DNA from: a virus
Virus record (IMG/VR): IMGVR_UViG_3300025120_000331
Location: 1-30,037 of that record
DNA: 30,037 nucleotides
Direction: 5' to 3' (one strand)
How positions within the stretch are numbered: the first letter of the stretch is position 1; each line of letters starts with the position of its first letter. Below the pieces are notes generated by a model. It was not told the DNA's origin and ran no database searches. It was given only the letters and a program-made list of their open reading frames with translations. The position numbers and the translations under genes are program-made. Below are positions 2,914-12,146 of this stretch, one piece after another.

Positions 2914-3322
2914 TTTAGCAACTACAGACCGTTTTGCAATAGCAGAAGTAGGTGGTGGCTCTTTCAATAGTAAGCACGTTACTGGCGAAGAAATTATAAC
3001 TGCTGCTAATTTAGTTACTGCTCGCGCAGTATCTACTACATCACATACATTAGCTTTAGCAGATGCACATAAGTTTATTCAGTTTGATAATGGTAGTGCA
3101 ATAGCTGTGACAGTGCCTACAAATGCATCGGTGGCTTTCTCAACAGGCACACAAATATTATTTAGTCAGCACGGTGCTGGTCAAGTGACGTTTGCAGCTG
3201 CTGGTGGTGTAACTGTTAGGGCTGCTGGAGGTAAATTAAAAACAACGGCACAATATAGTATGGGTAGTTTGATTAAGATAGCTACAGATGAATGGTATAT
3301 AACAGGAGATTTAACAACGTAA
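2870..3322 (+). CDS. Tail fibre / virion surface protein
   Basis: This 150-residue protein starts with the MADIKISALTAKGANLATTD pattern found at the N terminus of many phage fibre proteins. It continues with a Gly/Ala-rich beta module containing FSQHGAGQVTFAAAGGVTV and DEWYITGDLTT. The latter module is common at the end of phage tail-fibre or tip proteins and is probably a trimeric beta structure. It directly precedes two LamG proteins; the three probably make up the host-contact apparatus. The stop overlaps the next ATG (TAATG). The assignment as a fibre part is by pattern and neighbourhood; a capsid decoration role is possible. Confidence 0.65.
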   Translation: MADIKISALTAKGANLATTDRFAIAEVGGGSFNSKHVTGEEIITAANLVTARAVSTTSHTLALADAHKFIQFDNGSAIAVTVPTNASVAFSTGTQILFSQHGAGQVTFAAAGGVTVRAAGGKLKTTAQYSMGSLIKIATDEWYITGDLTT

Positions 3323-4077
3323 TGCAGATAGCAACACACGGAATATTAGCATCAAGTGCAAGTGCAGTAGCAAGTTTCAGTAATGTAAAAAGCTTGGTCT
3401 TTGATGGTGTAGACGATTTTGTAAATATAGCTGATAATGACAATTTATCTTTTGGAGATGGCTCAAACGATTCTGCCTTTTCTATAAGTGCGTGGATTAA
3501 AGCAACAGTTAAGAACTTTATAATAGTTTCTAAAGATGTCAGCGGAGCAGACGAATATTTATTTTATATTAATTCGCTAAATCAACTTTCTTTAGTTCTT
3601 TGCGATAATACAATTTCAAATAGACGCAGTCGCAATAGCGGAAATATTAGTTCAAATTACAATAATTGGATTCACGTTGTGGCTACTTACAATGGTGTTG
3701 GAGGCACAAACGCAGACAATGGAATAAAACTATATTTAAATGCAGTACAAGTTGATTCTGGTACTAATAATGGTGGCTCATATACTGCTATGCACAACGG
3801 AAGCGCACCTGTAACTATAGGCAACTACAATTCTTCTTTATTTGCCAACGGTCACATTGACGAAGTAGCAATATTTAATTCAGAATTAAGCGCAAGTAAT
3901 GTAACAAACATATATAATAGTGGGAACCCAGCCGATTTAACAAGTTTATCACCAATTAGCTGGTATAGAAATGGAGATGGTGACACATTTGCAACTTTGA
4001 ATGATAACGGTAGTGCATCCAACAACGGAACAATGACTAATATGACAAGTGGTGACATAGTAACTGATGTACCATAA
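3322..4077 (+). CDS. LamG / concanavalin A-like receptor-binding protein 1
   Basis: The gene encodes 251 residues. The start chosen is ATG 3322, which overlaps the upstream stop; an upstream in-frame start at 3292 would lie inside the previous gene. The body is one LamG (concanavalin A-like lectin/glucanase) domain: SLVFDGVDDFVNIADNDNLS, then FSISAWIKA, NWIHVVATYNG, IKLYLNAVQVDSG and GHIDEVAIFNSELS. These are the standard strands of the family, which binds glycans or proteins. A tail follows with WYRNGDGDTFATLNDNG and NGTMTNMTSGD. It probably recognises a surface sugar of the host at the tail tip. It is a clear paralogue of the next gene, with less N-terminal sequence. Confidence 0.8.
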   Translation: MQIATHGILASSASAVASFSNVKSLVFDGVDDFVNIADNDNLSFGDGSNDSAFSISAWIKATVKNFIIVSKDVSGADEYLFYINSLNQLSLVLCDNTISNRRSRNSGNISSNYNNWIHVVATYNGVGGTNADNGIKLYLNAVQVDSGTNNGGSYTAMHNGSAPVTIGNYNSSLFANGHIDEVAIFNSELSASNVTNIYNSGNPADLTSLSPISWYRNGDGDTFATLNDNGSASNNGTMTNMTSGDIVTDVP

Positions 4078-4955: not shown

Positions 4956-5207
4956 ATGAAAAAACAAGCAGAAACATACGCAATAATTAACATCGCAGAT
5001 TTATCAAACATCGACTTTTCGCAAGTAGGTGAAAACAACGAAAACACGATTAGAAAATCTATTGACGAATCGCAGTTTGTAATTAAGTGGAATACAACAC
5101 CTACATTTATAACAGATGGCACGGTAACACCATTGCAAACTTTAAACCATTCAGAAGCACTTACTTTAATGGCTACAGAAGCTTGGAGTGAACCTATAGA
5201 AATATAA
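4956..5207 (+). CDS. Hypothetical protein between fibre and lysis genes
   Basis: This 83-residue soluble protein has no Cys motif, membrane segment or catalytic signature. It starts 5 bases after the second LamG gene, so it is translated with the fibre genes. Proteins of this size in this position often help fold or cap fibres, but nothing in the sequence proves that. Two patches, FVIKWNTTPTFITDG and LMATEAWSEPIEI, look like ordered beta and helix segments. I do not recognise a family. Confidence 0.6.
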   Translation: MKKQAETYAIINIADLSNIDFSQVGENNENTIRKSIDESQFVIKWNTTPTFITDGTVTPLQTLNHSEALTLMATEAWSEPIEI

Positions 5208-5209
5208 TA

Positions 5210-5365
5210 ATGAGACACACAAACATACTTGCCGTATTATATTTTTTTAGTGGTTACTTTGCTGCTATAACAATGTTGTTTAGTGCGCAATTACACTTAC
5301 AAGCCTTTGCGGTTTTCTTTGTAATTTACTTAACTTATATGCTTGTAGAACAACTTGAACAATGA
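5210..5365 (+). CDS. Small two-helix membrane protein of the lysis cassette
   Basis: This is a 51-residue frame starting 2 bases after the previous stop and ending in an ATGA overlap with the holin gene. Two hydrophobic segments (about residues 6-24 and 30-46) are joined by a short SAQLHLQ turn, with a charged N terminus (MRHTN) and an acidic C terminus (VEQLEQ). That is the shape of a small class II holin or of a holin partner or antiholin. Its tight coupling to the holin-like gene supports a lysis role. No family is recognised. Confidence 0.6.
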   Translation: MRHTNILAVLYFFSGYFAAITMLFSAQLHLQAFAVFFVIYLTYMLVEQLEQ

Positions 5366-5835
5366 AAGAACAGTTACTTTTGCTGATAACTAAAACTAAA
5401 CTATATTCAATGCAACTATTAACCGTTGTTAGCAGCTTCTTTTTGCCTATTTATGGCATATTAATTTTAATCTTTTTTTGTATTGTATTTGATACAATCA
5501 CAGGAATTTGGAAAGCCAAAAAAACGAAAACACCCGTAACCAGCCGTAGACTTTCGGCAATTATTTCGAAAATACTTTTGTACGAAGCAACCGTAATGCT
5601 TTTTTATTTAATGGACTATTACTTACTAAATGATATTGTATTAACGTTCTTTAGTATTGAGTTACTAACTACTAAAATATTGGCTTTAGTTCTTGTTTCT
5701 GTAGAATTAATTTCTATAAACGAAAACTACAAAGCCGTGAAAGGAATCGACTTGTGGGCTTCACTTAAAAACTTATTTGCACGAGCAAAAGAAGTAACAA
5801 GCGACTTTAAAAACATTAATGAGAAAAATAAATAA
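5362..5835 (+). CDS. Holin (phage holin 4 / TcdE-like)
   Basis: This 157-residue inner-membrane protein has about four hydrophobic segments (roughly residues 17-42, 60-85, 87-100 and 102-114). It carries the family features VFDTITGIWKAKK and, after the last helix, SVELISINENYKAV. Phage holin 4 (TcdE/TMP21-like) proteins show the same D..TG..KA and S..EN patterns. It would open or depolarise the inner membrane to start lysis. It overlaps the small membrane protein upstream by 4 bases and the amidase downstream by 17 bases, a compact lysis operon. A soluble Lys-rich C-terminal tail is present. Confidence 0.75.
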   Translation: MKEQLLLLITKTKLYSMQLLTVVSSFFLPIYGILILIFFCIVFDTITGIWKAKKTKTPVTSRRLSAIISKILLYEATVMLFYLMDYYLLNDIVLTFFSIELLTTKILALVLVSVELISINENYKAVKGIDLWASLKNLFARAKEVTSDFKNINEKNK

Positions 5836-6232
5836 AATCATTGTTCATTGTACTGCTACACCAGAAGGACGGCATCACGACGTAGAAGATGTTAGACGTT
5901 GGCATTTGGCACGAGGGTTTAACGACATAGGCTATCACTACTTAATACATCTTGACGGCTTTATTGAAGCTGGAAGACCTGTAGAAAAAAAAGGCGCACA
6001 TTGTGCTTATCAAAATAGTGATTCGATTGGTATTTGTTACGTAGGTGGAATGACTAAAGATATGAAGCATCCTAAAGACACAAGAACGGATGCACAAAAA
6101 AATTCTTTGATTGAATTGATGCAAGAGTTAATGTATAAATACAATAAGGATATGACTATACACGGTCACAACGAATTTGCTAATAAAGCTTGCCCGTGTT
6201 TTAATGTAAAAACAGAATATGCGATTATTTAG
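5819..6232 (+). CDS. Endolysin, N-acetylmuramoyl-L-alanine amidase (T7 lysozyme-like)
   Basis: This 137-residue single-domain amidase cuts the bond between MurNAc and L-Ala of peptidoglycan. It follows T7 lysozyme closely: VHCTAT with zinc ligand His10, RRWHLARGFNDIGYHY with the catalytic-site Tyr39, SIGICYVGG, and HGHNEFANKACPCF supplying His117, Lys123 and zinc ligand Cys125. All residues known to be needed in T7 lysozyme are present. No signal peptide is seen, so the holin must release it to the periplasm. Whether it also binds an RNA polymerase, as T7 lysozyme does, cannot be told. It overlaps the holin gene by 17 bases and the spanin gene by 14. Confidence 0.93.
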   Translation: MRKINKIIVHCTATPEGRHHDVEDVRRWHLARGFNDIGYHYLIHLDGFIEAGRPVEKKGAHCAYQNSDSIGICYVGGMTKDMKHPKDTRTDAQKNSLIELMQELMYKYNKDMTIHGHNEFANKACPCFNVKTEYAII

Positions 6233-6641
6233 TTTATTTTTGATTTTAGGGCTTTATTCGTGTTCAGCGAAGTATCACTATAGGAAAGCACTTAAAAAGG
6301 GCTTAGAAGTGCTTAAAACAAGCGACACGATACGAATTAGCACAATAGATTCTATTCCTGTAATAAAACACGACACAATAGTTTACCAAAAGTTCTTTAG
6401 TTCTAAAGATACCGTAGTAATGTATAAGAATGTTTTTGTACCTCAAACACGTTTAGAAACACGAATAGAATATAAGCTAAAGCGTGACACTTTAAAAATG
6501 ATTACAAGAGTAGAAGTACACAAAGCAAAAGCAGATGCCAAAATAAACAAGAAGCCAAACTATTGGGGTATGCTTATATTTATTGCTTGTGTTTTTCTTG
6601 TTGGTTTGTTTGGCACTAAGTTGCTAAAGAAATACTTATGA
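6219..6641 (+). CDS. Probable unimolecular spanin (u-spanin)
   Basis: The 140-residue protein has a lipoprotein signal at its N terminus (MRLFSLFLILGLYSC, lipid-bearing Cys15; the relaxed LYSC box is acceptable in Bacteroidota). Its C-terminal transmembrane helix covers about 116-133 (WGMLIFIACVFLVGLFG), followed by a basic tail KLLKKYL. The middle is a periplasmic stretch rich in Thr, Val and Lys, likely beta and extended. One protein anchored in both membranes is the architecture of the T1 gp11 u-spanin, which fuses the outer and inner membranes in the last lysis step. The gene follows holin and endolysin with overlaps, exactly where a spanin belongs. Known u-spanins share topology more than sequence, so the call rests on topology and context. 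Confidence 0.75.
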   Translation: MRLFSLFLILGLYSCSAKYHYRKALKKGLEVLKTSDTIRISTIDSIPVIKHDTIVYQKFFSSKDTVVMYKNVFVPQTRLETRIEYKLKRDTLKMITRVEVHKAKADAKINKKPNYWGMLIFIACVFLVGLFGTKLLKKYL

Positions 6642-7672
6642 CAAATAAGAGGTTTAGATTAACACCAGACGAAGCAGAAATACTATTTAAATACAGAGGT
6701 TTAAAAGAAGCTGCACAAGAAGCTGGTGTAGGTGTAGAAAGTGTTAAACACGGATGGCTTAAAACTAAACAAGCAAGTTTATTTTTTAAGAACCCACTAC
6801 ATAAAGACGAAGCAGAAAACAAGCTTGAAGAATTAAGTAAAAAACTTGTAGAAGACTTAAAAGAATTTGCACCAAACTTTCCAAAGTTAGTACGACAAGA
6901 AAAGCAAAAAGAGTATTTACTCGTAATTGACCCAGCAGATATACACATAGGTAAACTTGCAGATTCATTTGAAACAGGCGAAGACTATAATAACCAAATA
7001 GCAGTTAAACGAGTAAAAGACGGGGTACAAGGCATCTTAAACAAAGCCAAAGGGTTTCCAATAGAAAAGATTTTGTTTATAGGTGGCAACGATATTCTTC
7101 ACATAGATACACCGACAAGAAATACAACAGGTGGCACACCACAAGACACGGATGGAATGTGGTATAGTAATTTTTTAATAGCGAAGCAACTTTATGTAGA
7201 TATTCTTATGCAGCTTATTTCAGTAGCAGACGTTCATTTTACATTTAATCCAAGTAACCACGACTACCAAACAGGATTTTTCTTGTCCGATGTCATAAAA
7301 ACGTATTTTAGAAACTGCCAAAACATAAGCTTCGATTGTTCAATAGCACATCGTAAAGGTTATAAATACGGAAAAAACTTAATAGGAACTACACACGGAG
7401 ACGGTGCTAAACATCAAGATTTGCCGTTGTTAATGGCTCAAGAATTTCCGATTGAATGGAGTGAAACACGATATAGATACGTTTACACGCACCACGTTCA
7501 CCACAAAACAAGTAAAGACTACATCGGAGTAACCGTTGAAAGCTTACGTTCACCAAGCGGCACGGATTCTTGGCATCACAAAAAAGGCTATCAACACGCA
7601 CCTAAAGCCGTTGAGGGGTTTATACACCACAAAGAAGACGGACAAGTAGCCAGATTAACACATTTATTTTAA
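6638..7672 (+). CDS. Calcineurin-like metallophosphoesterase with N-terminal HTH
   Basis: This 344-residue protein has a complete metallophosphoesterase core: D101-I-H103, GGND (149-152), NHD (207-209), THGD (252-255) and THHVHH (284-289), the five motifs that bind two metal ions. The first ~45 residues look like a helix-turn-helix (LKEAAQEAGVGVESVKHGWL), and a helical linker (55-90) joins it to the core. Family members act as nucleases, phosphodiesterases or phosphatases; the HTH suggests a nucleic-acid substrate. The gene overlaps the spanin by 4 bases and ends the late transcript, before a 128-base gap with an early promoter. The substrate is not known, and nothing shows a role in lysis. 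Confidence 0.85.
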   Translation: MTNKRFRLTPDEAEILFKYRGLKEAAQEAGVGVESVKHGWLKTKQASLFFKNPLHKDEAENKLEELSKKLVEDLKEFAPNFPKLVRQEKQKEYLLVIDPADIHIGKLADSFETGEDYNNQIAVKRVKDGVQGILNKAKGFPIEKILFIGGNDILHIDTPTRNTTGGTPQDTDGMWYSNFLIAKQLYVDILMQLISVADVHFTFNPSNHDYQTGFFLSDVIKTYFRNCQNISFDCSIAHRKGYKYGKNLIGTTHGDGAKHQDLPLLMAQEFPIEWSETRYRYVYTHHVHHKTSKDYIGVTVESLRSPSGTDSWHHKKGYQHAPKAVEGFIHHKEDGQVARLTHLF

Positions 7673-9323: not shown

Positions 9324-9701
9324 ATGGAAGACTTAATTAGAAAAGTGAAACATCACATACGAAAAGACGGACTAAAATCTAAATGTAGAAAGCCATACTA
9401 TACACATCGAAGAATGTACCTTTTTAATCTTTTAAGAAACGCTGGTGTAACTTATAGCCGTATAGCTGAATTATTTGATTTAAACCACGCTACGATCATT
9501 CACGGTATAAAACGATATGAGAATCTTAAACAAACACGAGACGCGTTCTTATTGCTTGACATAGCCGATTACGATGGCAAGTTTCAACTACATAAACACG
9601 AATACAATTTGAAACGTGATATTTTAAAATCTACTACAATAAGAGATTTAGAAATAATAAAAGGAAGAACAGAAAAAGGGCTATATAAAGAATTAATTTA
9701 A
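9324..9701 (+). CDS. DnaA domain IV-like DNA-binding protein
   Basis: This 125-residue basic protein has a helix-turn-helix near residues 40-65, TYSRIAELFDLNHATIIHGI. It matches the DNA-binding end of DnaA (domain IV), where a signature like DHTTVLHA reads bases in DnaA boxes. No ATPase domain is present, so it cannot act as a full initiator. It may bind origin sequences, compete with host DnaA or regulate transcription. It is the last gene of the first early operon; its stop codon is followed at once by promoter P2. The C-terminal half (80-125) is helical and unassigned. Confidence 0.7.
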   Translation: MEDLIRKVKHHIRKDGLKSKCRKPYYTHRRMYLFNLLRNAGVTYSRIAELFDLNHATIIHGIKRYENLKQTRDAFLLLDIADYDGKFQLHKHEYNLKRDILKSTTIRDLEIIKGRTEKGLYKELI

Positions 9702-9709
9702 TATATTTG
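9702..9709 (+). promoter_or_regulatory. Promoter P2 (-7 box) of the nucleotide cassette
   Basis: TATATTTG fits the Bacteroidota -7 consensus and begins directly after the stop of the DnaA-like gene. Transcription would start near 9714-9717, at the base of the hairpin described next. No good TTG box is seen at the usual distance upstream, so it may need an activator. It lacks the full palindrome of P1, P3 and P4. Confidence 0.6.
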
Positions 9710-9716
9710 TACAGTC

Positions 9717-9766
9717 GGCGGGACAATCAAAATTTTTTAAGTGTGACGTTAGTAGGAAATCCCGCC
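9717..9766 (+). other. Structured 5' leader of the nucleotide cassette
   Basis: GGCGGGA (9717-9723) pairs perfectly with TCCCGCC (9760-9766) across a 36-base loop. This G+C-rich stem stands out in an AT-rich genome. GTGTGACG (9741-9748) in the loop can pair partly with CGTTGCAC (9776-9783) outside it, which would make a pseudoknot or a competing fold. A run of nine T follows at 9785-9793, before the ATG at 9802. A cis-acting RNA (riboswitch, attenuator or protein-binding leader) is possible; I do not recognise a known class. Confidence 0.5.
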
Positions 9767-9801
9767 TTCCGAAAGCGTTGCACTATTTTTTTTATAATAC
9801 T

Positions 9802-10068
9802 ATGAACATTTTGAAAAAAGCAAATGAGATTGTAAATAAACGGTCTGAAGAAAAAGAAAGGCAATACGGTGATTTTATTGAGTGCATGACAAAAACAGCG
9901 CGGATAGCGTCTGAATTATCAAATAAAAACATTACAACAAACGATGCTTATAACGTTTTGATTGCACTAAAATTGGCAAGGCAATCGCATTGCCATAAAG
10001 AAGATAATTTATTAGATGCAGTTGCATATCTTGGTTCATTGAATGAATTCTTAAATAAAAAATTATGA
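9802..10068 (+). CDS. DUF6378-like protein
   Basis: The gene encodes 88 residues from ATG 9802; a longer frame with a TTG start at 9778 would reach into the leader hairpin region and is rejected. The pattern R..EKERQYGDF near the start, ITTNDAYNVLIALKLAR in the middle and KEDNLLDAVAYLG near the end fits the DUF6378 family. These small helical phage proteins keep Asp/Asn residues reminiscent of MazG-type metal sites. No biochemical role is established that I can name. It lies in front of the dCMP-type synthase and a MazG-like gene with 4-base overlaps, so a job in nucleotide pools is likely. Confidence 0.65.
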   Translation: MNILKKANEIVNKRSEEKERQYGDFIECMTKTARIASELSNKNITTNDAYNVLIALKLARQSHCHKEDNLLDAVAYLGSLNEFLNKKL

Positions 10069-10823
10069 GCAATATATTTGAAACAGAATACAAACAGCTT
10101 TTAATGCGTTGTTTATTAAAAGGAGAAATTATTGAAAATCGAACGGCTGTAAAAACGCATAGTTTATTTAATCAAAATATAAACATAGATTTAAAATACG
10201 GTTTTCCTATTGTTACTGGTAAAAAAATATTTTTTCAAAAAGCGTTAAGTGAGTTTAAATGGATATATGAAGGCCGCGTTGATTTAGATTATTTAAATAA
10301 AAATAATATTAATTGGTGGAATGATTTTGCAAAAAACGGTAAACTAGGCAAAATATATGGCTATCAAATACGAAAATTTAATGGAGTTTTTGATCAAGTA
10401 AAATACGTAATAAATGAAATTAACAATAATTCAAGAAGAGCTTTAATAACATTATGGAACCCAACTGACCTTAAAGAGCAAGCGTTGCCTTGTTGTTATA
10501 CGCAATTAAACTTTGTACGTATTAATAATAAATTAAATATGTCAATTAATTTTAGATCATCAGATTTGTTTTTAGGCTTGCCTTACGATATAATATTTGC
10601 GGCTTTGTTTTTATATACAATTGCTAACGAATGTAATTTAGTGCCAGCAAATTTAGGTTTAAATATAGCAAATGCGCATATTTATATAAATCACGAAAAA
10701 GCAGTTCAAGAGTATTACAGAAAACCGGTTTATAATTTACCGGAATTAAAAGGAACATACAATAATTATGAATTAAAAAATTATAAATCAGGAGAATTAA
10801 TAAAAGCAAAATTAGTATTATGA
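10065..10823 (+). CDS. Thymidylate synthase homologue, probable dCMP (hydroxy)methyltransferase
   Basis: This 252-residue protein is full length for the ThyA fold. Visible are NRT (phosphate loop, Arg26), TGKKIFFQKALSEF (Glu63), W84-W85, IYGYQ (Tyr99), the nucleophile in LPCC (Cys143), FRSSD (Arg164, Asp167), LGLPYD (170-175) and NAHIY (His205, Tyr207). The residue that selects the base, Asn177 of E. coli ThyA in LGLPFN, is Asp175 here. T4 dCMP hydroxymethylase has Asp at this place, and Asn-to-Asp changes in ThyA move preference to dCMP. The likely product is therefore 5-hydroxymethyl- or 5-methyl-dCMP from methylene-tetrahydrofolate. The PCH motif is PCC. The retained Trp leaves methyl versus hydroxymethyl open. 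It is flanked by DUF6378 and MazG genes with 4-base overlaps. Confidence 0.85.
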   Translation: MSNIFETEYKQLLMRCLLKGEIIENRTAVKTHSLFNQNINIDLKYGFPIVTGKKIFFQKALSEFKWIYEGRVDLDYLNKNNINWWNDFAKNGKLGKIYGYQIRKFNGVFDQVKYVINEINNNSRRALITLWNPTDLKEQALPCCYTQLNFVRINNKLNMSINFRSSDLFLGLPYDIIFAALFLYTIANECNLVPANLGLNIANAHIYINHEKAVQEYYRKPVYNLPELKGTYNNYELKNYKSGELIKAKLVL

Positions 10824-11116
10824 ATAGATTTGAATTAATAAGGCAATGGGCAAACGCTAAAGGGATATATACGAAAGGTGACCCAAAAACACAAACTTTA
10901 AAATTATTAGAAGAATCAGGTGAATTAGCAAAAGCTATTTTAAATAACGACCAAGACGAAGTAATAGACGCTATAGGGGATTGTGTTGTAGTTTTAACAA
11001 GCATAGCGCACATGAGAGGTGTTACTATTGAGCAATGTATTGATGAGGCTTATAATGTAATATCAAAAAGGAAAGGTAAAATGATTAACGGAACATTTGT
11101 AAAAGAAAAAAAATGA
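10820..11116 (+). CDS. MazG-like nucleotide pyrophosphohydrolase
   Basis: This is a 98-residue all-helical protein with the MazG metal site: E31-E32-xx-E35 in LLEESGELAKAI and E47-xx-D50 plus Asp54 in EVIDAIGDCVVVL. Such enzymes split nucleoside triphosphates to monophosphate and pyrophosphate. Directly behind a predicted dCMP-acting synthase, the natural substrate would be dCTP: hydrolysis would supply dCMP and keep plain dCTP out of DNA, as T4 gp56 does. General MazG house-cleaning or alarmone degradation are alternatives. The gene overlaps both neighbours by 4 bases, so translation is coupled. Confidence 0.8.
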   Translation: MNRFELIRQWANAKGIYTKGDPKTQTLKLLEESGELAKAILNNDQDEVIDAIGDCVVVLTSIAHMRGVTIEQCIDEAYNVISKRKGKMINGTFVKEKK

Positions 11117-11529
11117 GAACATATAAAGCAAAAATTAAAATGAAGGATGACTGGAAAATACAAAATACCGGTTTATTAGGAGAAAAAATATTCAATCTTT
11201 GGTTTAATTCAAATTATGAAACTGAAAAATTATTTAAACAATGCGCTGATCGTGATTACGAAGGAATTGATTTTGCAGATGAAAAAGGTTATACGTATCA
11301 AGTTAAAGCGACAAGGGCTCGTAGTTATACGTTTAATTGCTATTTAGATGACCTTAACGAGCATTTAAAAAGTGATATATATGTTTTTATACAAATACAT
11401 GAAAAGTATGCTTATATTGAAAGTTTATATAATAAAAATGAAATACTTAATTTAGCCAGGCAAAGTTTCAAAGAACAAAAATCTTGTTTTGTATACGCTA
11501 AAGACTTATTACAGCAAAAATTATTTTAA
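11113..11529 (+). CDS. PD-(D/E)XK-like nuclease
   Basis: This 138-residue protein carries a core resembling restriction-type nucleases: Glu24 in GLLGEKIF, Asp53 in EGIDF and Gln63-Val-Lys65 in TYQVKAT, spaced as E...D...QxK, a known variant of the PD-(D/E)XK motif. The motif residues are placed on predicted strands after a first helix. The family covers endonucleases that cut or nick DNA. No DNA-recognition domain is seen beyond the core. The gene is coupled to the MazG gene by ATGA. In T4, endonucleases that attack unmodified cytosine DNA work with dCMP hydroxymethylase; a parallel here is attractive but unproven. A resolvase or repair nuclease is also possible. Confidence 0.6.
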
Positions 11530-11531
11530 TT

Positions 11532-12146
11532 ATGGAAGGGTGGGTAAAATTACATCGTAAATTTCTTGAGTGGGAATGGTACGATAAATCAGAAACAGTG
11601 CATTTATTTCTTCACTGCTTGTTAAAAGCAAATCATAAAAATAAAAACTATAGAGGTAAAATTGTAAATAGAGGCAGTTTTTTAACTAGTCGTGAATTGC
11701 TAAGTAAAGAACTAGGATTGACAGAACGACAAATAAGAACATCGTTAAATAGGTTGAAACTGACCAAAGAACTGACCGTTAAATCAAGCAGACAAGGTAC
11801 TGAAATTCATATAGTTAACTATAGTAAATACCAAATACAGTCCAACAAAGAGTCGAACAGTAGACCAACAACAGACCAACAACAGACCAGTAACAATAAT
11901 GTTAATAATGAAAATATATACAGATCATTTGAGCATTTGTTTATAACACATGGTCAGTATGAAAAGCTTTTACAATACAATTCTAAAAAACAAATTGATG
12001 AGATCTTAGATTCTATAGAAAACTATAAGGCAAATAAGAATTATAAATCGTTATATTTAACAGCTAAAAATTGGCTAAAAAAAGTACCAAAAGAAGAAGA
12101 AGATAAATTAGTAGCACAAGCAAAGAAGCATGGTTATGTTAAGTAA
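11532..12146 (+). CDS. Winged-helix replication initiator / replisome organiser
   Basis: This 204-residue protein opens with [20 protein letters not shown] and a hydrophobic [14 protein letters not shown] stretch, then a winged helix (about 65-110: [34 protein letters not shown]). That N terminus is typical of phage replication proteins related to DnaD and lambda O types. A Gln/Asn-rich linker (112-128) leads to a helical C-terminal domain (130-204) likely to touch the helicase. The next gene, a RecA-fold ATPase, overlaps it by 17 bases, as expected for an initiator and its helicase partner. The origin is not identified. Confidence 0.75.

Follow-up and report, generated by a model that had tools for sequence, protein, structure and literature searches.

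Several described systems bear on the locus examined here. In phage T4, the jobs considered below are carried out by a different set of proteins, namely gp42, gp56, DenA, and DenB (PMC8056088). Phage cassettes for modified cytosine, as described in the MetaGPA report, encode a thymidylate synthase (TS) with Asp177, a PRA-PH domain that co-occurs with TS in the modified-cytosine contigs, and a carbamoyltransferase; TS positions 177 and 147 were the top two linked to phage contigs with experimentally modified cytosine (PMC8670742). Work on MilA associated Asp with recognition of cytosine and Ser/Arg with recognition of deoxyribose (PMC5175136). Mom-REase fusions of jumbo phages may, according to one proposal, target the DNA of the host or of competitors, and the review describing them already raises the possibility that MazG removes unmodified nucleotides (PMC7824862). 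Finally, restriction enzymes of the BisI family (Eco15I and NhoI) cut DNA that contains 5mC or 5hmC but not plain DNA, and Eco15I requires residues E49, D69, Q79, and K81 (PMC11347163).

Here, a four-gene cassette is examined in the window, meaning the whole stretch of DNA analyzed, which is an entire IMG/VR virus record of 30,037 bases that is linear and perhaps a fragment. Its virus likely has a flavobacterial host because its terminase is 56% identical to terminases of Flavobacterium psychrophilum phages. The cassette (positions 9802-11529) consists of four plus-strand open reading frames that encode an 88 aa DUF6378 protein (9802-10068; PF19905 E=1.7e-12), a TS-superfamily enzyme (10065-10823; PF00303 E=2.4e-60), a MazG-like pyrophosphohydrolase (10820-11116; PF03819 E=1.6e-8, PRA-PH PF01503 E=1.8e-6, and phrog_1992 E=4e-36), and a 138 aa protein with an E..D..QxK motif (11113-11529) that matches no family above cut-off and is predicted to be a PD-QxK nuclease from an AlphaFold2 (AF2) model searched with Foldseek. 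The original prediction, made from the letters of the sequence, described four such genes joined by 4-base ATGA overlaps; the overlaps are present at 10065, 10820, and 11113, the first three proteins have Pfam matches, and the residues E24, D53, Q63, and K65 of the fourth are present as described. On one side the cassette is flanked by a plus-strand gene for a DnaA C-terminal-like helix-turn-helix (HTH) protein (9324-9701; Bac_DnaA_C E=5.5e-6, under its cut-off) and on the other by a plus-strand gene for a DnaD-like helicase loader (11532-12146; phrog_2514 E=7.7e-24) and by helicase and NinG genes. The HTH and DnaD-like genes form the left and right borders of an insertion site. Near the structural genes, the window additionally encodes a protein with a PNGase F N-terminal-like domain (118-516; E=3.3e-5) and a Laminin_G_3/concanavalin-like protein (3292-4074; E=7.7e-21), which perhaps bind glycans at the virion surface. 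We consider it reasonably probable that the cassette is a phage-borne system for cytosine replacement and self/non-self discrimination, with a nuclease that cuts unmodified DNA.

Like T4, the cassette encodes a dCMP-type TS-superfamily enzyme that carries the Asp for cytosine specificity, a pyrophosphohydrolase predicted to fill the role of gp56, and a nuclease linked to modification, and a homolog of the T4 alpha-glucosyltransferase (AGT) is encoded by two relatives (L091 and L094). Unlike T4, it has MazG in place of gp56, its nuclease is a predicted PvuII/BisI-like PD-QxK enzyme whereas DenA is a GIY-YIG enzyme, and it is a compact, overlapping operon in a phage of ~30 kb with swapped modules, with DUF6378, and with no gp1-like kinase found. 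With the MetaGPA cassettes it shares a TS with Asp177 and an altered position 147, a PRA-PH/MazG partner, and a further enzyme possibly decorating hmC; the nuclease and DUF6378 are not reported in the available portion of that study (PMC8670742), and the module types found here include AGT, asparagine-synthase-like, and PLP enzymes. The Mom-REase fusions are the nearest proposed analog of modification-nuclease coupling, in that a phage modification is coupled physically to a REase-fold nuclease (PMC7824862), but they concern adenine momylation of finished DNA, whereas the cassette is predicted to act on cytosine at the nucleotide level and through separate genes. The open-licence literature yielded no DUF6378/TS/MazG/PD-QxK unit; the original prediction had likewise called this combination with DUF6378 and the nuclease one not known as a described system.

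Residues of the window TS were assigned by alignment with T2 td (thymidylate synthase), a T4-type gp42, and a dUMP hydroxymethylase. The enzyme carries a catalytic C144, Asp175 (equivalent to E. coli N177), Tyr145 (equivalent to H147), and deoxyribose Ser165; thus, in this alignment the catalytic Cys is retained, as are the Ser and Arg associated with deoxyribose, and Asp replaces the Asn of dUMP enzymes, Asn being present at position 177 in both T2 td and the dUMP hydroxymethylase. The TS fold, catalytic Cys, and Asp at N177 place it with the dCMP-specific members of the superfamily (T4 gp42 and Xp12 methylase), and it is predicted to methylate or hydroxymethylate C5 of dCMP. Asp177 was present in 154/154 TS-superfamily proteins of the collected cassettes, a set that spans at least four divergent subfamilies and includes gp42-like, amidotransferase-linked, and glucosyltransferase-linked types. 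Together with the literature on this residue (PMC8670742, PMC5175136) and with the relatives that bear AGT, this supports the earlier reading of a dCMP-type synthase. Moreover, the PRA-PH domain matched by the window MazG (PF01503) is the TS partner domain of MetaGPA. A reading of the cassette as ordinary nucleotide-pool genes, in which TS makes dTMP, MazG is a housekeeping enzyme, and the nuclease is an unrelated neighbor, could appeal to the co-occurrence of TS, MazG, and dCMP deaminase in other phages such as Votkovvirus S28C10; Asp177 in every cassette protein along with Tyr147, the exchange of TS for modules with a gp42-like enzyme and AGT, and a nuclease that never occurs without a module all speak against it and make it highly improbable. 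The modification part of the favored reading, that the phage DNA contains modified cytosine, is by comparison very probable.

As for the C5 product, hydroxymethyl is somewhat favored over methyl. The H147Y replacement and the loss of W83 in the window TS appear to resemble hydroxymethylases, and window-type TS proteins (CCY, WWNDF) have lost features that are likewise missing from gp42-like enzymes. A sister TS subfamily (259 aa, e.g., L085), in which PPCH and both tryptophans are kept, may be a methylase. Comparison of GC content between cassette-bearing and empty relatives, as a check for deamination bias, gave no clear signal. Among named relatives, the nearest to the window TS (55% identity, with Asp177 and CCY) comes from Votkovvirus S28C10 (L095; AP013540.1), a pelagic autographivirus in which TS adjoins MazG-like, kinase-like, and dCMP-deaminase genes (5170-7191) and which may likewise have modified cytosine.

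The MazG protein is predicted to convert dCTP to dCMP. Its motif (EExxE...ExxD) is intact and E31, E32, E35, E47, and D50 are invariant; MazG is absent beside some TS-nuclease pairs (L109-L112, L152, and L154). A phage dNMP kinase for the modified nucleotide, the role of gp1 in T4, was not found as a match to PF21448 or PF02223 in the window and 24 related, possibly incomplete records (25 records in all).

The association of the nuclease with cytosine modification was examined with searches that start from different genes. Viral contigs searched with a nuclease profile, blind to TS, yielded 131 relatives, and a cytosine-type TS module was found upstream of 72/72 distinct nucleases, nearly always in the order TS-MazG-nuclease; the three nuclease loci that lack TS are truncated by the end of their contig. 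A helicase profile search, which retrieves related phages regardless of the cassette, gave 55 phages with a complete interval, of which 49 had neither TS nor nuclease, 6 had both, and none had one alone (Fisher p=3.4e-8, with relatives treated as independent and kinship uncorrected). One of the empty sites (L229) occurs in a phage whose helicase is 96% identical to that of the window. The nuclease is thus genetically tied to a cytosine-modification module, as in a T4-type system. TS modules without a nuclease are common, with 53 TS loci in one survey and 42 loci in another, so that dependence is one-way: the nuclease implies the module but the module does not imply the nuclease. Such one-way dependence would be expected if the nuclease were lethal without modification. 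Conserved co-occurrence of the cassette genes in relatives, proposed earlier as a check, was therefore strongly upheld (72/72 for the nuclease; 6 both, 49 neither, and 0 single at the insertion site; and 52/53 for the DUF6378 loci considered below).

The interval between DUF6378 and the MazG-nuclease pair holds a varying cytosine module. Types include an Asp-type TS alone, a gp42-like enzyme alone, and a gp42-like enzyme together with AGT (L091; Pfam AGT E=5.7e-15, phrog_2888 E=5.7e-65). That the same nuclease family occurs beside both a gp42-like enzyme and an AGT of the T4 type lends substance to the analogy with T4 logic that was drawn originally. On the nuclease tree, at least 26 module changes are required where 6 would be the minimum, and nucleases that are 95-99% identical are found beside different modules (L013/L159, L089/L090, L149/L157, and L146/L154). 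Near-identical nucleases with swapped modules indicate that the nuclease does not depend on one particular adduct, and sensing of bare cytosine by the nuclease fits best.

Other modules were observed at this position. One recurrent type combines two uncharacterized proteins (~315 and ~300 aa) with a PLP-fold enzyme and a gp42-like enzyme (L077:2342-5070, L081, L089, L102, L105, L113, L149, and L159); the two uncharacterized proteins have no Pfam match and are fused as a 639 aa protein in L159. This module is a candidate for a new cytosine hypermodification pathway. Assignment of the c17 proteins as alpha-glutamyl/putrescinyl-thymine pyrophosphorylases was dropped, as Pfam and PHROGs do not confirm it. 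A divergent TS with an FRND motif adjoins an asparagine-synthase-like amidotransferase in other loci (L079:2176-5101, L086:3543-5569, L115, and L121), in L079 also with a DNA methylase, and is a candidate for a further modification pathway. In one nuclease-bearing cassette, a SAM-dependent methyltransferase (L257:4220-5023; Methyltransf_23 E=7.7e-17) lies between DUF6378 and the gp42-like gene.

The AF2 model of the nuclease (pLDDT 84.8) has Eco15I, NhoI, and PvuII at the top of its Foldseek matches (E=1.9e-4 to 4e-3, prob 0.99-1.00, TM about 0.45-0.55), and a PvuII/BisI-like PD-QxK fold with an E24-D53-Q63-K65 active site is predicted, as in PD-(D/E)XK enzymes with an E-D-(E/Q)xK site. Across 76 distinct nuclease relatives, D53, Q63, and K65 are invariant, and residue 24 is Glu in 71 and Gln in the remaining 5. 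Of the 39 codon differences between the window and L008 nucleases, 32 are silent. The D-x9-Q-x-K spacing and the QVK motif are identical to those of Eco15I (D69/Q79/K81). Despite the shared predicted fold and E...D-x9-QxK site, there is no detectable sequence homology to BisI-family enzymes or PvuII, and the partner is a nucleotide-level modification system and not a DNA methyltransferase. A profile search of PDB sequences gave no homology to BisI, NhoI, or Eco15I up to E=10. No match above cut-off was obtained for the nuclease sequence in Pfam, PHROG, PADLOC, or PDB, and no copy was found in 84,980 bacterial genomes or in 50,697 phage records; weak matches to DUF6998/SMEK_N were set aside.

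Since BisI-family enzymes cut modified DNA and PvuII cuts plain DNA, the fold does not fix the polarity of the nuclease. The best fold matches, Eco15I and NhoI, need 5mC/5hmC and have the same QVK motif, which would suit a BisI/Mrr-like, modification-dependent enzyme that attacks modified-cytosine DNA, for example that of competing phages. Such an enzyme would cut the phage's own DNA, would leave its obligatory linkage to a modification module without a reason, and is hard to reconcile with 95-99% identical nucleases beside several different modules; this polarity is quite unlikely. Alternatively, the nuclease could process DNA in recombination, repair, or junction resolution, being adapted to the phage's own modified DNA and not a weapon against unmodified DNA. 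Such a role would also be compatible with the strict linkage and with the location of the cassette in the replication region, and the fold matches include archaeal Hjc resolvases (1gef, prob 0.95). Against this, PvuII/BisI-type enzymes outrank Hjc, the window already encodes a resolvase (NinG) and an exonuclease resembling RecE, related phages whose site is empty do without the nuclease, and many modified relatives lack it, so that a processing role appears unlikely. One-way linkage and module swapping underlie the choice of a nuclease that acts against unmodified DNA, which, given the modification part, is likely.

The favored reading, cytosine replacement with a nuclease that cuts unmodified DNA, would operate as follows. 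MazG would remove dCTP to give dCMP, to which the TS-superfamily enzyme would add, at C5, either a hydroxymethyl group, which is somewhat favored, or a methyl group. Host kinases would form the modified triphosphate, no phage kinase having been found, and this would take the place of dCTP in phage DNA. The nuclease would cut ordinary-cytosine DNA, such as the host chromosome and competing phages. Any C5 substitution would block it, and it could therefore remain unchanged while the modification module is swapped between phages. The chances are about even for the more general form of this proposal, in which DUF6378, MazG, and the nuclease are a fixed frame around an exchangeable cytosine-chemistry module and the small nuclease, by sensing bare C5, enforces any modification. 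If true, the cassette would be a virus-carried restriction-modification system with interchangeable chemistry, a version of the T4 strategy that small flavobacterial phages assemble from different components and either carry whole or lack entirely. Modified cytosine would be predicted in hundreds of uncultured phages, the PLP enzyme with its two uncharacterized proteins and the asparagine-synthase-like enzyme may represent new hypermodification pathways, and a small nuclease that may tell bare from C5-substituted cytosine would be a useful reagent.

A parallel in line with the favored reading was observed in relatives that lack the PD-QxK nuclease, where often a GIY-YIG-like domain, the enzyme class of T4 DenA, (T5orf172/MUG113) and an uncharacterized domain of ~90 aa are fused to MazG beside an Asp-type TS (L022:5702-6442, L041, L043, L050, and others). 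Matches to T5orf172/MUG113 are sub-threshold in 3/3 fusions tested, with invariant Y, R, and E. The fusion (36 TS loci) and the PD-QxK nuclease (103 loci) never occur together and belong to different phage clades; in another 17 TS loci, some of them truncated by contig ends, both nuclease types are absent.

The DUF6378 protein scores 47.9 bits against a Pfam cut-off of 27.1 (PF19905) and is thus a member of that family. Charged residues are conserved, and the AF2 model is all-helical (pLDDT 85.9) with no PDB fold match at E below 2. The possibility that it is a second MazG was rejected on this result and on a profile comparison (prob 1.5). A DUF6378 profile search yielded 58 new loci, and a TS-superfamily gene was present within 6 kb in 52 of these; of the other six, five are cut short, such that 52/53 informative loci have a TS module. 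DUF6378 is not confined to such cassettes, given that homologs occur in ordinary replication regions of Dhillonvirus, Gordonia, and Mycobacterium phages. No open-licence literature linking DUF6378, dCMP hydroxymethylase, and MazG was found. The protein, which here gains its first strong functional context, would appear to be a fixed accessory to the modification step.

The cassette was originally described as a unit behind its own promoter. The unit holds, since the cassette is present all-or-none at one site, but the promoter is not its own: the leader (9702-9801, plus strand), comprising a promoter-like TATATTTG box (9702-9709) and a pseudoknot RNA of ~90 nt with a U8 end, also lies directly before the DnaD-like gene in cassette-less relatives, and the HTH gene is immediately 5' of the leader in both cassette-bearing and empty relatives. 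The leader therefore belongs to the insertion site and not to the cassette. Sigma-70-like sites were not in excess (12 found versus 18.6 expected). The RNA has stems P1 (9717-9723/9760-9766), P2 (9740-9750/9774-9784), and P3 (9755-9758/9767-9770), followed by U8. Covariation is strong: in 15 sequences, 95.1% of cells pair and 13/22 pairs are changed on both sides, a level reached by 0/500 shuffles, and slid versions collapse. The RNA has no Rfam match at the gathering threshold, and cmsearch matches occur at the same place in relatives, between the HTH and replication genes (L229:6347-6447, L234, L237, L241, L243, L245, and L246). It could be an attenuator or a small RNA. In some cassette-less relatives (L232:4744-6346, L239:4713-6268, L242:439-2020, and L244:4859-6345), the HTH gene is followed by MT-A70 or N6/N4 DNA methyltransferases, and the small proteins encoded behind them differ, some having weak VRR_NUC/Hjc/TnsA similarity, suggestive of methyltransferase-nuclease-like pairs. 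These adenine methyltransferase and small nuclease-like genes follow the HTH gene and precede the RNA, such that modification genes are taken up into the interval both 5' and 3' of the RNA.
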